64,000 nucleotides of DNA from Halobacteriales archaeon YIM A00010 (GTDB taxonomy: Archaea > Halobacteriota > Halobacteria > Halobacteriales > Haloarculaceae). Below the pieces are notes generated by a model. It ran no database searches and was not told the DNA's origin. It saw only the letters and a program-made list of their open reading frames with translations. Below are positions 15,433 to 48,538 of this stretch, one piece after another (within the stretch, counting starts at the first letter, position 1; every line of letters begins with the position of its first letter). Made by a program: the position numbers and the translations under genes. Where the stretch lies: contig JAKCFJ010000001.1 of assembly GCA_025041175.1 (NCBI GenBank), positions 1,054,001 to 1,118,000 on the forward strand, in the 5' to 3' direction.

Positions 15433-18279
15433 ATGGAATTGCACAGCAGAGACGTTCGCCAAGACGTTCGTGAGCTTGGTTCGTTGCTTGGAGACGTTCT
15501 GGCAAGCCAGGCGTCGGAGGGTTCGTTCGAGGCAGTTGAATCGCTTCGGACGACAGCGATCGAGTACCGTCGTGGTGAACGCGGCTCGCGCGCAGAGTTG
15601 CACGACGATCTCACTGGGCTTTCGCCCGAACACAGGCGCAGCGTTGCTCGTGCATTCACGACGTACTTCGAGTTGATCAACCTCGCAGAGGAGCGAGAGC
15701 GGGTTCGTTCGATTCGCTCTGCGTCCCAGAACGAGGAGCTTGCGGGTGGTTTCGCGGACGTAGCCGCCGCATTAAACGATGTCGAGGAGTCGACGGTACA
15801 GGAAATCTCGGACGACGTGTTGATCGAGCCGACGTTCACTGCCCACCCGACGGAGGCCCGGCGCAAGACGATTAAATCCAAGCTCCGATCGATCGAGTCG
15901 ATTCTCGAAACGCTCGATGAACAGGCGCCGACGGACACCGAGCGGGCACACGTCGAACAGACGCTTCAGACCGAAGTCACGAGTCTCTGGCAGACGTCCC
16001 AGGTCCGCAGCCGTCAGCCGACACCGGACGACGAAGCACACAACGTTCAGTGGTATCTCGAAAACGTGCTGTTCGACGTGGTCGGTGACGTGTACACGGA
16101 GTTCGAGTCAGTGTGTGAGAACGATATCGACGCGTCGATCGACGTTCCGAAGCTGTTCGAGTTCCGCTCGTGGGCGGGTAGCGACCGGGACGGGAACCCA
16201 CACGTGACGCCCGACGTGACCACGAGAACGCTCGCCCGTCAGCGGGATATCGTTCTCGACCGGTATCGGGAAGTGCTCGATGGGTTGCTGTCGGTGTTGA
16301 GCCACGACCGCACGCGGTTGTCGCTGGGGGCGGAGTTCCGTCACTCTCTCAGCGAAGACCGGGAGGAGCTTCCCCGGGTGGCCGACGCGGCGTCGGAGGC
16401 GTACCCCGACGAGCCGTACCGACAGAAGCTCCGGCTGATGAGCGAGCGTCTCGATCGGGTCGATGACGTTCGTCCCGGTGGATACGACGACGCTGAAGCC
16501 TTCGGGGAGGACCTAGCGGTGCTGACCGAAAGCGTCCGGAACAACGGCGGCGAGTCGATCGTGGAAACCCACCTCGCCCCGCTCCAACGGCAGATCGACA
16601 CGTTCGATTTCACGCTTGCGAGCTTGGATCTGCGGGATCACCGCGAGAACCACACCGCGACCGTGGCTGAAACGCTCGAACGCGAAGGGATCGAGTACGA
16701 GACGCTCGACGAATCCGAGCGGATATCGGTCCTGACCGATGCGATCACCCAGGAGCAGCCGGTGATCGATCTCGCCGAGACCGAAGAGCTGTCGGAAACG
16801 GCAGCGCGCGTCTGTGAGCGGTTTGCCAGCCTCGCAGACTGGCAGGCTGAGTACGGGAGCCACGCGATCGACACCTACTGTATCAGCATGACCGAGCAGC
16901 CGAGCCACGTCCTCGAAGTGCTGTTTTTAGCGGATCAGGCCGACGTCGTCTCGCTCCCGGACTACGCCGGCATCGACGTGGTTCCGCTGCTCGAAACCAA
17001 ACACGCGCTCTCGAACGCCCGGGAGATCATGGGAACTCTCTTCGAAAACGAGGCCTACGCGCGCGCGCTCTCGTTGCGTGGTGACACCCAGGAGATCATG
17101 CTCGGTTACTCCGATTCCAACAAGGAAAACGGCTTTCTCGCCGCGAACTGGGCGCTGTACCGCAACCAGCGCCGGCTCGGAAACATCACCGAGGAGTTCG
17201 ACGTGGATCTGCGGCTGTTCCACGGCCGGGGCGGTTCGATCTCGCGGGGCGGCGGACCGATGAACGAGGCGCTGCTCGCACTCCCACGCGAAACGGTGAC
17301 CGGTGAGGTCAAGTTCACCGAACAGGGCGAAGCCATCGCGGAGAAGTACGCCAATCCCCAGATCGCCGAGCGCAACCTCGAACAGATGCTCACCGCCCAG
17401 CTTCGCGCCCGGTTGCGGGCACTGCAGGATCCCGAGGAGCCGGTCCAGTCGAACTGGCTGGACGCGATGGAGACGATGGCCGACACCGCCCGCGAGGCGT
17501 ACCAGGACCTCCTCACGACCGACGGGTTCGTCTCGTATTTCGAACAAGCGACGCCGATTCCGGTGATCGAAACGCTCAACCTCGGATCGCGGCCGGCATC
17601 GCGCTCGGACGAACGGTCCGTCGAAGACCTCCGGGCGATTCCGTGGGTGTTCTCGTGGACCCAATCGCGGTGCATTCTGCCGGGCTGGTACGGGCTTGCC
17701 GCGGGGATCGACGCCTACCTCGAGAACAGCGAGGCGCAACGCGCCTCGAGCAGAGAGGCACGAAGTGCCTCAAGCAGTCGGACGGAGTCCGACGACAGCG
17801 AGGAGCAAAGCTCCTCGGGCAGCCGGCCGCAGGCCGGCGACAGCGAGGAACAACGTTCCTCGAGCAACCGGACGCAGTCCGGTGACATCGAAACGCTCCA
17901 GGAGATGTACGAACACTGGCCGTTCTTCCGAACGACGCTCGACAACGCCGCGCTTGCGATCGCGCGCACTGATATGGAGATCGCCGCCGAGTACGCGGGA
18001 CTCGCCGACGAGGATCTCCGCAGCCGGATCTTCCCGCGACTGTCCGAGGAACACGAGCGCGCAGCCGAGCTCGTGTTAGCGATCACGGGGCGCGAACACC
18101 TCATCGACCGCGAGTGGTTACGAAAAAGCCTCGAACGACGCAACCCCTACGTCGATCCACTCAACCTCCTGCAGGTTCAGCTCCTCGGAATGGATCCCGA
18201 CGACCGCTCACCCGAGGAGGAACGCGCGCTCCGGCTCACGGTGAACGGGATCGCTGCTGGGATGAAAAACACCGGATAA
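15433..18279 (+). CDS. ppc: Phosphoenolpyruvate carboxylase
   Basis: 948 residues; carboxylates PEP with bicarbonate to oxaloacetate, replenishing the TCA cycle. Catalytic segments are intact: FTAHPTEARRKT (His near 138), GSDRDGNPHVTP, LGYSDSNKENGF, FHGRGGSISRGGGP, SRPASR and the canonical C-terminal MKNTG. A TATA-like box about 24 nt upstream suggests a leaderless start at 15433. The odd feature is an insert of about 51 residues (767-817) between the DAYLEN helix and DIETLQEMYEHWPFF. It is Ser/Glu/Arg/Gln-rich, repeats every 15 residues, and is encoded by seven perfect DNA hairpins. Without it the length would be about 897, normal for the family. The insert sits in a likely surface loop, so activity should be kept. 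Confidence 0.97.
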   Translation: MELHSRDVRQDVRELGSLLGDVLASQASEGSFEAVESLRTTAIEYRRGERGSRAELHDDLTGLSPEHRRSVARAFTTYFELINLAEERERVRSIRSASQNEELAGGFADVAAALNDVEESTVQEISDDVLIEPTFTAHPTEARRKTIKSKLRSIESILETLDEQAPTDTERAHVEQTLQTEVTSLWQTSQVRSRQPTPDDEAHNVQWYLENVLFDVVGDVYTEFESVCENDIDASIDVPKLFEFRSWAGSDRDGNPHVTPDVTTRTLARQRDIVLDRYREVLDGLLSVLSHDRTRLSLGAEFRHSLSEDREELPRVADAASEAYPDEPYRQKLRLMSERLDRVDDVRPGGYDDAEAFGEDLAVLTESVRNNGGESIVETHLAPLQRQIDTFDFTLASLDLRDHRENHTATVAETLEREGIEYETLDESERISVLTDAITQEQPVIDLAETEELSETAARVCERFASLADWQAEYGSHAIDTYCISMTEQPSHVLEVLFLADQADVVSLPDYAGIDVVPLLETKHALSNAREIMGTLFENEAYARALSLRGDTQEIMLGYSDSNKENGFLAANWALYRNQRRLGNITEEFDVDLRLFHGRGGSISRGGGPMNEALLALPRETVTGEVKFTEQGEAIAEKYANPQIAERNLEQMLTAQLRARLRALQDPEEPVQSNWLDAMETMADTAREAYQDLLTTDGFVSYFEQATPIPVIETLNLGSRPASRSDERSVEDLRAIPWVFSWTQSRCILPGWYGLAAGIDAYLENSEAQRASSREARSASSSRTESDDSEEQSSSGSRPQAGDSEEQRSSSNRTQSGDIETLQEMYEHWPFFRTTLDNAALAIARTDMEIAAEYAGLADEDLRSRIFPRLSEEHERAAELVLAITGREHLIDREWLRKSLERRNPYVDPLNLLQVQLLGMDPDDRSPEEERALRLTVNGIAAGMKNTG
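17731..17883 (+). repeat. In-frame array of seven 17-nt perfect hairpins
   Basis: Seven consecutive elements of 17 nt, each a perfect 7-bp stem with a 3-nt loop, begin at 17731, 17755, 17777, 17800, 17822, 17845 and 17867. Type A: GAGGCGC/GCGCCTC, GAGGCAC/GTGCCTC, GAGGAGC/GCTCCTC, GAGGAAC/GTTCCTC. Type B: GTCGGAC/GTCCGAC, GCCGGCC/GGCCGGC, ACCGGAC/GTCCGGT. From the third on, A and B alternate with a 45-nt period, exactly 15 codons. Arms differ between copies but each change is matched in the opposite arm. It lies inside ppc and is translated. Confidence 0.95.
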
Positions 18280-27677: not shown

Positions 27678-28140
27678 GACATCCTCCTCCGCGTAACCGC
27701 GGAGGAATCCCACGGCACCGCACCGCTGGTTTGAGATCTTAGGGTTTGCAGTCCACCACTACGGTCGGAGTCAGAATCTCCGAGCGTAGTCCTGTGAAGG
27801 CACGGATGGACTACTGGGAGTGTCGCCGGACTACGTCCGGCTGCTAGCCAAAACCTTCGGTTTTGGCGATGTCGCCGAGCGAAGCTCGGCTGCTAACCAG
27901 AACGCTATGCGTTCTGGTGATGCCAAGCCCCCGGTACTCCTATCCTCTCCGTGAGGACTCGGAGTTACTTTTGTACCGCAAGAGGGCCCACCGCTTGTTG
28001 TTTCGTTCCCACGAAGGGCACAGCTCGTTTCCGAGATGGGCGGACACTCGAACCGCCAGTTTCGGGCCGTCAAAGACCGGACTCTGTGAGTATCCGGCTC
28101 GACAAGTAAAAGACGTACGGAAGGAGTATCAACATGTCGG
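27678..28140 (-). mobile_element. Decayed IS200/IS605-type element end with TnpB debris
   Basis: A 9-bp stem at 27685-27706 (TCCTCCGCG, loop TAAC, CGCGGAGGA) followed by AATCCC looks like the subterminal hairpin of IS200/IS605-group elements in haloarchaea. On the minus strand, about 27831-28090 encodes LTARNWRFECP and later Cys residues reminiscent of the C-terminal zinc ribbon of TnpB, but the Cys spacing is broken and the frame does not continue. No complete transposase is present. Tentative. Confidence 0.35.
27825..27917. repeat. Second hairpin array, 49-nt period
   Basis: Four hairpins in a row: 27825-27841 (GCCGGAC, loop TAC, GTCCGGC), 27848-27866 (CCAAAACC, loop TTC, GGTTTTGG), 27874-27890 (GCCGAGC, loop GAA, GCTCGGC), 27897-27917 (CCAGAACGC, loop TAT, GCGTTCTGG). 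Spacers alternate TGCTAR and GATGTC-like words. First to third and second to fourth are each 49 nt apart. Same design as the array in ppc, but not in a coding frame. Confidence 0.9.
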
Positions 28141-46399: not shown

Positions 46400-48538
46400 C
46401 TATGAGGAAGCCGACAGCTGGAACTGGAAAATCCCGTCGTCCGGTTCCGTCGTAGTCGTGGTCGTTCCATCTGCGGGCGGTGGAGCGGTAGTCGTCTCCT
46501 CCGTCGGTGGTTGGTCGGTGGGCGTCTCTTCCGTCGGTGGTTGGTCGGTGGGCGTCTCTTCCGTCGGTGGTTGGTCGGTGGGCGTCTCCTCCGTCGGTGG
46601 TTGGTCGGTGGGCGTCTCCTCCGTCGGTGGTTGGTCGGTGGGCGTCTCCTCCGTCGGTGGTTGGTCGGGAGGCGTCTCCTCCGTCGGTGGTTGGTCGGGA
46701 GGATCGGTGACAGTCGACGTCGGCGTGGACGACGGCGTCGGCTCGGGTGTGCCTCCAACAGTCTCCGTGTAGCTCGGACCGTCTGGTGACGGCGGGGCCG
46801 GTGGCTGATCCACGATCGACCCGAGCACACCGTCGTCCGCCGATCCGAACGGCGTCATGGCCAGCAGTGGGAACCCGGCGGCTATGACGGCACCGCTGAC
46901 GAGCACGATCACCGCCGCGATCCCGATGATCAGTTTGATCGCGGACGCCCGGCTCTGTTCGTTCCCGAACTGATCGGACGCCTCGAACCGGCGTTTGATC
47001 GGGCGAACAGTCGATCCCACCGGATCGGGGATTTTCACGAGGATTTCGAAGATCTCCCCGAGATCGATCGCCCCCGTGGAGATGGCGATCAGCGAGTAGA
47101 GCAGAAAGCCCAGCGGCGGGACGACCACGACCGAGACCGGTATCGTCCCGAGAATACCGAGCCACGGGGCACCCAGATCCGCGAACGTTATCGATCCGAA
47201 CGACATCGACATGATGGCGATGACGCTGGCGCTGAGGATCGCCGTCGCGCTGATCCGTCCCAGGCGAGCGTGCTTGAACGGCTGATACCCCAACACCCGC
47301 GCGCCCCACACCTGGAGGAGCGGCAGTGAACCGTATCCCAGCGAGGTTGACAACGCCGCCCCGAGCATTCCATACTGGGGAATGAGCAGGAAGTTGAGAG
47401 AGAAATTTATCGCGGCTGCGGCCCCCGTTGCCACGATCAGGGTCCGCATGTTCCCACTCGCCTGGTTGATCGTCAACAGCGGACGCGCAACCGCAAACCC
47501 AACCGTTCCGGGAAGCAAAATGAGCAGCGGCGTCACTGCCGGTTCCATCGCAGTCCCGAGGTACATCGGCACGAACACAGGCGCGAGTGCCCCGAGACCG
47601 ATCGCCAGCAGCAACATCAACAACAGGACGTATCGGGTCGATCGCGTCGCGAGATCCTCTATTTTCCTGATGCGCCCCTTCGCCCAATGATCCGACGTGG
47701 ACTGGATCATGAGCCCCTGCAGCGCTGTCGGGAGCAGCCAAAGGAACTGCGCCAGGGTGAGCGCACCCTTGTAATATCCCGTCAACGTGCTGCTGGTGAA
47801 CGCAGTGAGCATGAGAATGTCGAACTCGTACATCGTCTTCAGCAAGAAGAAATATACAATTGAATTATGGTTAAAATAAAACATCTCTTTCCGTGGGAAG
47901 TCGGGTGGGGTGGATCGGAACAGGGACTTGAGCGAGATCGACTTCGAGATGTAGATGAACCCGATGACGAACCCGATCATGCTCGCCAAGATCTGTCCGA
48001 CGAAGACGCCAGCAACCCCGAACCCAAGGTATGCAAGCCCGATCGCCGCGATGTAGTAGAGGATCTTGTACACCACGTTCAACATCCCGCCGATGTGCTC
48101 GAGTTTCAGCCCCATCAGCGCCCGACGAACGTACTCGCGGAACTGCGCCGCGAACACGAGCAGTGCCAGTATGTAGAGGTACGGGGTGTATCTGGGGTCG
48201 AAGATCGTCCCGACGATGCCGAGCTCGGCAGCGAGCACCAACCCGACAGCCGCGATGATCGCAAAGACGAATGCGAGCCGGAAGTAGTACGCAAACACAT
48301 TGCTTTTCCACGTTGCCGCCGCGTGTTCTTCTGCGATATACTTGCGGACGCCTCCGTTGATGCCCGAGCTAACCAGGATCATCAGTATACCGAACCCTGC
48401 GGACAGGGTCGCAAACTCCCCGTAGATGGTGGGACCGAGGATGCGGATGAGGAGAGGAGAAAACACCGACTGTGCGACCAGGATCAACACCTGTGAGCCA
48501 GCAATCGCGGCAAACGCAGTAACGAGATTCCGTTTCAC
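46400..48538 (-). CDS. Oligosaccharide flippase with Pro/Thr repeat tail
   Basis: 712 residues. The N-terminal 440 residues are a MATE/Wzx-type flippase with about 12-14 membrane helices (starts MKRNLVTAFAAIAGSQVLIL; landmarks ILGPTIYGEFATLS, GINGGVRKYIAEEH). After a cytoplasmic stretch near 505-550 comes an extra helix (IKLIIGIAAVIVLVSGAVIAAGFP, about 555-575) and then an outside tail: a low-complexity Pro/Thr/Glu stalk of about 130 residues containing about seven copies of a 10-residue unit (TPTDQPPTEE). The tail is unusual for a flippase and looks like a heavily O-glycosylatable surface spacer. Located next to the glycan operon it probably exports its lipid-linked product. Confidence 0.88.
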   Translation of the reverse strand: MKRNLVTAFAAIAGSQVLILVAQSVFSPLLIRILGPTIYGEFATLSAGFGILMILVSSGINGGVRKYIAEEHAAATWKSNVFAYYFRLAFVFAIIAAVGLVLAAELGIVGTIFDPRYTPYLYILALLVFAAQFREYVRRALMGLKLEHIGGMLNVVYKILYYIAAIGLAYLGFGVAGVFVGQILASMIGFVIGFIYISKSISLKSLFRSTPPDFPRKEMFYFNHNSIVYFFLLKTMYEFDILMLTAFTSSTLTGYYKGALTLAQFLWLLPTALQGLMIQSTSDHWAKGRIRKIEDLATRSTRYVLLLMLLLAIGLGALAPVFVPMYLGTAMEPAVTPLLILLPGTVGFAVARPLLTINQASGNMRTLIVATGAAAAINFSLNFLLIPQYGMLGAALSTSLGYGSLPLLQVWGARVLGYQPFKHARLGRISATAILSASVIAIMSMSFGSITFADLGAPWLGILGTIPVSVVVVPPLGFLLYSLIAISTGAIDLGEIFEILVKIPDPVGSTVRPIKRRFEASDQFGNEQSRASAIKLIIGIAAVIVLVSGAVIAAGFPLLAMTPFGSADDGVLGSIVDQPPAPPSPDGPSYTETVGGTPEPTPSSTPTSTVTDPPDQPPTEETPPDQPPTEETPTDQPPTEETPTDQPPTEETPTDQPPTEETPTDQPPTEETPTDQPPTEETTTAPPPADGTTTTTTEPDDGIFQFQLSASS
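46501..46710 (-). repeat. 30-bp tandem repeat in the flippase tail
   Basis: About 6.7 nearly identical 30-bp copies (unit CCGTCGGTGGTTGGTCGG plus GGGCGTCTC on the plus strand), encoding TPTDQPPTEE. Copies differ by one or two bases; the seventh is partial. Such arrays can vary in copy number by slippage or recombination. Confidence 0.95.

Follow-up and report, generated by a model that had tools for sequence, protein, structure and literature searches.

Among described palindromic repeats, two groups are closest to the element considered here. REP/BIME and REPIN sequences are characterized as high-copy, short DNA hairpins that alternate in clusters and are mostly extragenic, with some genic copies (PMC3733652; PMC2817692). 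Rickettsia palindromic elements (RPEs) are presented as selfish palindromic repeats that occur both between genes and, in frame, within numerous unrelated housekeeping genes (PMC10969869; PMC3733652). Template switching, described for RNA genes, leaves footprints in which a loop inversion and a multi-base compensatory change arise in one event (PMC8794818), and DNA mini-hairpins with a GNA triloop on a G–C stem are extraordinarily stable and resist nucleases (PMC4686876). No archaeal REP family is named in the retrieved passages of the survey of GTAG- and CGTC-type REPs, in which "archaea" appears only in the reference list (PMC3733652), and no earlier description of the present haloarchaeal repeat was found in the open-access literature.

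The repeat was encountered as an array inside ppc, the gene for phosphoenolpyruvate carboxylase, in a window (the whole stretch of DNA analyzed, 64,000 nucleotides) from a 5.97-Mb genome whose genus is probably Halocatena. A preliminary description had placed seven hairpins with perfect 7-bp stems and 3-nt loops in the ppc reading frame, and its coordinates are exact (Table 1); all seven have seven Watson–Crick pairs and lie in frame within the PEPcase open reading frame in the order A, A, B, A, B, A, B. They had been termed back to back, which is not strictly correct, being separated by spacers of 7, 5, 6, 5, 6, and 5 nt (start-to-start distances of 24, 22, 23, 22, 23, and 22 nt). One A+B period spans 45 nt, i.e., 15 codons, by which the frame is kept, and the protein comprises 948 amino acids versus 897 in a congener, corresponding to an insert of 51 residues, as had been estimated. 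The insert, to judge from its reading frame, is presumably translated, and its site maps to residues 744–746 of Escherichia coli PEPcase (1fiy), between two aligned stretches. The window contains 26 perfect 7/3 hairpins versus 8.05 ± 3.1 in Markov sequences, and arrays of at least two hairpins numbered zero in 20 simulated windows. Furthermore, 2000 synonymous codon shuffles of ppc yielded 0.13 hairpins in the insert on average and two at most, versus the seven observed; hence, base composition and the encoded peptide both fail to explain the hairpins. Elsewhere in the window, a 30-nt tandem repeat of seven copies, 96% identical, occupies positions 46486–46698.

Table 1. Coordinates of ppc, its palindromic array, and the second array in the window (R1, covariance model of the 45-nt unit)
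Feature	Position	Strand	Sequence or evidence
ppc, phosphoenolpyruvate carboxylase, host gene, 948 aa	15433..18279	+	Pfam PEPcase E=1e-262, two stretches flanking the insert
Whole palindromic array, 7 hairpins	17731..17883	+	~51 extra residues, SEAQRASSREARSASSSRTESDDSEEQSSSGSRPQAGDSEEQRSSSNRTQSG
Hairpin A1	17731..17747	+	GAGGCGC-AAC-GCGCCTC
Hairpin A2	17755..17771	+	GAGGCAC-GAA-GTGCCTC
Hairpin B1	17777..17793	+	GTCGGAC-GGA-GTCCGAC
Hairpin A3	17800..17816	+	GAGGAGC-AAA-GCTCCTC
Hairpin B2	17822..17838	+	GCCGGCC-GCA-GGCCGGC
Hairpin A4	17845..17861	+	GAGGAAC-AAC-GTTCCTC
Hairpin B3	17867..17883	+	ACCGGAC-GCA-GTCCGGT
A+B unit 1, 45 nt	17755..17799	+	R1, 68.1 bits
A+B unit 2, 45 nt	17800..17844	+	R1, 72.6 bits, E=2.5e-16; best R1 match of the genome
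A+B unit 3, 45 nt	17845..17889	+	R1, 67.9 bits
Second window array, 4 perfect hairpins, spacing 24/25/25	27825..27915		GCCGGAC-TAC-GTCCGGC, CAAAACC-TTC-GGTTTTG, GCCGAGC-GAA-GCTCGGC, AGAACGC-TAT-GCGTTCT

The ppc array is one copy of a dispersed haloarchaeal palindromic repeat and is not specific to ppc. The unit of this repeat is 45 bp in length and consists of hairpin A (GAGGxxC), RGCA, hairpin B (xxCGGxC), and GAC; the covariance model R1 was built from ten 45-nt units aligned without gaps. A search of the ppc protein against its own genome recovered further copies with stop codons, i.e., outside genes, and the second window array, whose flanks carry no coding score, has an R1 match at 27819–27865 on the minus strand (E=1.4e-6). 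This genome contains at least 100 R1 matches, and the other genomes of the genus 3–32 apiece. The element is present in most genomes of the family (127 of 146, in 22 of 22 genera), and R1 found no match outside the order Halobacteriales in a 295-genome sample of the phylum. The exact A+B pattern, searched in one genome for each of 84,980 species, was confined to haloarchaea, namely Halorubrum, Haloferax, Halolamina, and one Halobacteriales MAG. The pattern was not found in viral contigs, and a tblastn search of plasmids with the consensus peptide returned nothing, a result to which the low-complexity filter may contribute. Two contigs listed under two species (G002:C1 and G003:C1) agree in length and in match coordinates and are probably the same chromosome.

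The stems are perfect over 7 bp, reaching 11 bp in some hairpins, the loops comprise 3 nt, and short conserved spacers join the hairpins. In 79 arrays comprising 226 modules, 49 first-arm sequences occur, nearly all closed by a C–G pair, and the loops are mostly GAA, GTA, GCA, GGA, or their complements. Loops of the GNA/TNC type are found in 149 of 213 array hairpins versus 33 of 87 isolated hairpins (p=5e-7), and the B loop, read on the A-to-B strand of 72 units, is GNA in 52 and TNC in 7. The arrays are mosaics, since several stem types occur besides A and B (CCAGAnnn, CAAAACC, CAAGAGC, GCGGAGG, and GAGACGC). Many Halocatena arrays are adjoined by a repeat of approximately 1 kb (approximately 68–84% identical) with a conserved open reading frame lacking a Pfam match (e.g., L051:721-1389); its copies include L033:480-1430, L051:540-1485, L068, L049, L065, L110, L060, L063, L077, L116, L124, and L025.

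Several sites at which the unit resides are empty in relatives. The ppc flanks are contiguous in 48 of the 48 other family genomes in which both were found, so the ppc insert is private to this genome. Comparison with congeners revealed clean insertions in four other genes: those for an MR/MLE enolase and a P-type ATPase have gained 45 nt each, ppsA (phosphoenolpyruvate synthase) 51 nt, and an amine oxidase gene 90 nt. With slashes marking the junctions, the units read GAY/AGM-A-RGCA-B-GAY/, the motifs being GAC or GAT and AGC or AGA. Among the few isolated copies flanked by GAY left and right, the two trinucleotides agree in 14 of 15, and the right one is GAT in 3 of 3 copies with GAT on the left versus 1 of 12 otherwise (p=0.009); in so few copies, this agreement hints, thinly, at a short target repeat.

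Of 78 arrays classified by codon likelihood, approximately 14 are contained in a single open coding frame, whereas the flanks of 53 are noncoding on both sides. Haloarchaeal genomes of this kind are mostly coding; genic insertions are therefore strongly under-represented, i.e., selected against. The consensus unit has no stop codon in any of its six frames; 18 of 20 genic A+B copies nevertheless use the same one of the six (binomial p = 4e-11, computed for 17 of 20), yielding hydrophilic SEEQRSSGSRTQSGD-like peptides, and loci outside the genus contribute 7 of the 18. In genes, the insert would form a hydrophilic, probably disordered linker. Empty congener or family sites are known for the copies in ppc, ppsA, amine oxidase, MR/MLE, and P-type ATPase genes, and further hosts include genes for V-ATPase subunit I, an AMP-binding enzyme, an ABC ATPase, GH3, cofC, valS, and PolX, among others. 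In ValS, the unit lies at about the same loop in a probable Halocatena salina, in Halolamina, and in Haloferax prahovense. A different kind of repeat, a long Lys/Asp/His tandem repeat (KDHDKDHGKD), is found in an open reading frame at L016:1815-2909 on the minus strand.

The paired arm changes noted in the preliminary description are real and act at the level of DNA, not RNA. Among 576 variable pairs, 562 are Watson–Crick, 7 are A–C, and 2 are G–U, in a search that fixed the conserved cores only and did not require pairing; shuffled arms would pair in 45% of cases at the five most variable pairs. A larger alignment, which unlike the 576-pair count was fitted to the model, contains 374 cells with two-sided changes and has a covariation score of 0.496 versus 0.169 ± 0.007 when shuffled; the covariation collapses in slid controls. 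The encoded residues vary with these paired changes (EAQRAS, EEQRSS), so it is not the peptide that is preserved.

Arrays also change in place. At one site in three congeners with near-identical flanks (L107, L119, and L131), the first hairpin is common, and later modules and array lengths differ; in another pair of loci (L014 and L132), the differences are paired stem changes. Loop inversion was seen directly in two cases only: TGC/GCA in two related copies of one genome (L122 and L127), within the stem GACGGTC, which is unique among the fetched loci, and TAC/GTA (L054 and L128). Old copies decay: at a site in the V-ATPase subunit I gene that holds an intact unit in G000, congener G004 (L182) retains only a decayed, unpaired relic, and L124 is a decayed form of L060. 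Pairing thus marks young or active copies and does not reflect site-level selection.

These observations probably, though not conclusively, indicate a haloarchaea-wide, non-coding, dispersed mosaic palindromic element that is rewritten in place by fold-back template switching and kept in genes as a linker. The element spreads to new sites as whole 45-bp units beside GAY trinucleotides, as the empty sites show, presumably by non-autonomous transposition, and at each site the array then grows, shrinks, and is rewritten. Hairpins may extrude as single strands from an ssDNA intermediate, and one arm may template the other through fold-back template switching, which would give rise to stem changes in both arms and to flipped loops. 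Persistence in genes might be favored by the unit length of 15 codons and by the one frame encoding the hydrophilic linker. The dispersed copies, empty sites, and loop inversions lend direct support to two suggestions of the preliminary description, that of a selfish palindromic repeat adapted to coding DNA and that of template switching at hairpins. Against this explanation, recombination swapping whole modules between arrays would likewise yield paired changes, and no transposase is tied to the element. A bolder formulation, an archaeal "self-perfecting" palindrome, i.e., a 45-bp repeat with no enzyme of its own that is actively rewritten by fold-back DNA synthesis, evolves through jumps of entire hairpins and flipped loops, needs no transposase to spread, and introduces hydrophilic linkers into haloarchaeal proteins, is rather unlikely.

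Mobilization by an IS200/IS605-type Y1 HUH transposase, a REP/RAYT-like system in which the enzyme would recognize ssDNA hairpins and cut after GAC, and in which the arms would stay perfect since only foldable copies move, is a possible but less likely alternative. The junctions, in the form GAC/AGC-A-RGCA-B-GAC/, would be self-targeting and would yield tandem 45-nt arrays. Moreover, paired perfect mini-hairpins of this style lie within or beside Y1 (IS200-type) genes of the genus (L144:1460-1503, L148:1318-1356, L150:1405-1451, and L150:1828-1868). Two other genera have an IS605-type tnpB element whose terminal hairpin carries an A+B unit in its loop (L136:1501-1545 and L137:1501-1545; TGACATCCTCCGCGC...GCGCGG). 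However, Y1 genes occur in 95 of 146 family genomes, the unit count correlates only weakly with the Y1 count (rho 0.20, p=0.014), and Y1 genes are missing from several unit-rich, near-complete genomes, which leaves strict IS200/IS605 dependence unsupported. No dedicated RAYT was found for the element, archaea are reported to have IS200-type TnpA only and no RAYTs (Y1 classification, PMC6006769), and selection for foldability alone leaves loop inversion unexplained.

It is doubtful that the family is purely a product of replication and recombination, i.e., that it was seeded once and then spread without transposition, as arrays exchanged sequence through ectopic gene conversion and template switching. 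Module swaps at conserved sites, loop inversions, differences in array length, and the location of some copies within larger duplicated contexts accord with such a history; clean single 45-nt units in unrelated unique genes, with no flank homology beyond GAY, argue against it.

A selected RNA or DNA structure regulating ppc is highly improbable and is contradicted by the data. Seven stable mRNA hairpins are indeed predicted (approximately -92 kcal/mol for 175 nt), but none of the 48 other ppc genes compared has the array, the unit resides in many unrelated genes and intergenic regions, which also leaves the suggestion of something special to PEP carboxylase unsupported, and the near absence of G–U pairs and the decayed V-ATPase relic speak against a conserved RNA structure. 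The notion that the hairpins merely follow from biased codon use in an amino-acid repeat, for which the low-complexity Ser/Glu/Arg/Gln peptide speaks, is refuted by the synonymous shuffles, by peptide-altering paired changes, and by the intergenic location of most copies.

The element shows how in-frame linkers arise in essential enzymes, among them PEP carboxylase, ValS, and subunit I of the V-ATPase. Its natural record of inverted loops and of stem changes on both sides is also unusually rich, so that the template-switch model for the evolution of palindromes can be tested directly in Haloferax, a tractable archaeon.

Among known systems, the footprints of template-switch mutations are shared in the perfect arms, multi-base compensatory changes, and loop inversions (PMC8794818), although those were described for RNA genes and the present ones belong to a dispersed repeat family. 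Non-autonomous elements derived from IS200/IS605 resemble the repeat in their subterminal ssDNA hairpins and in that units lie in or beside IS605/Y1 loci, whereas the haloarchaeal units lack IS ends and a firm transposase link. A MITE was rejected, as terminal inverted repeats are missing and the unit ends, A and B, are different palindromes. REPs of the GTAG class differ in that the haloarchaeal unit has no terminal GTAG and its junctions are GAC/GAT and AGC/AGA; the haloarchaeal spacer on the B-to-A strand is TGTC/TGCYY, with 7-bp stems and 3-nt GNA loops. CGTC-tagged REPs have a CGTC (or TGTC) tag, an 8–9 bp stem starting with A/T pairs, a 4–5 nt loop, and a CCA tail; this class was likewise rejected, for TGTC precedes B on one strand, yet the stems are of 7 bp with mostly G/C outer pairs and the loops of 3 nt. 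With REP/BIME in general, the element shares clustered, high-copy, short palindromes that are mainly extragenic, and, like RPEs, it has inserted in frame into unrelated genes, at sites that relatives leave unoccupied. Compared by description, RPEs are bacterial and approximately 150 bp in length, whereas the archaeal element consists of 45-bp units of two 7/3 hairpins in tandem mosaics of many stem types. By analogy, the element appears to work like REP/BIME and Rickettsia palindromic elements and to be their archaeal counterpart.
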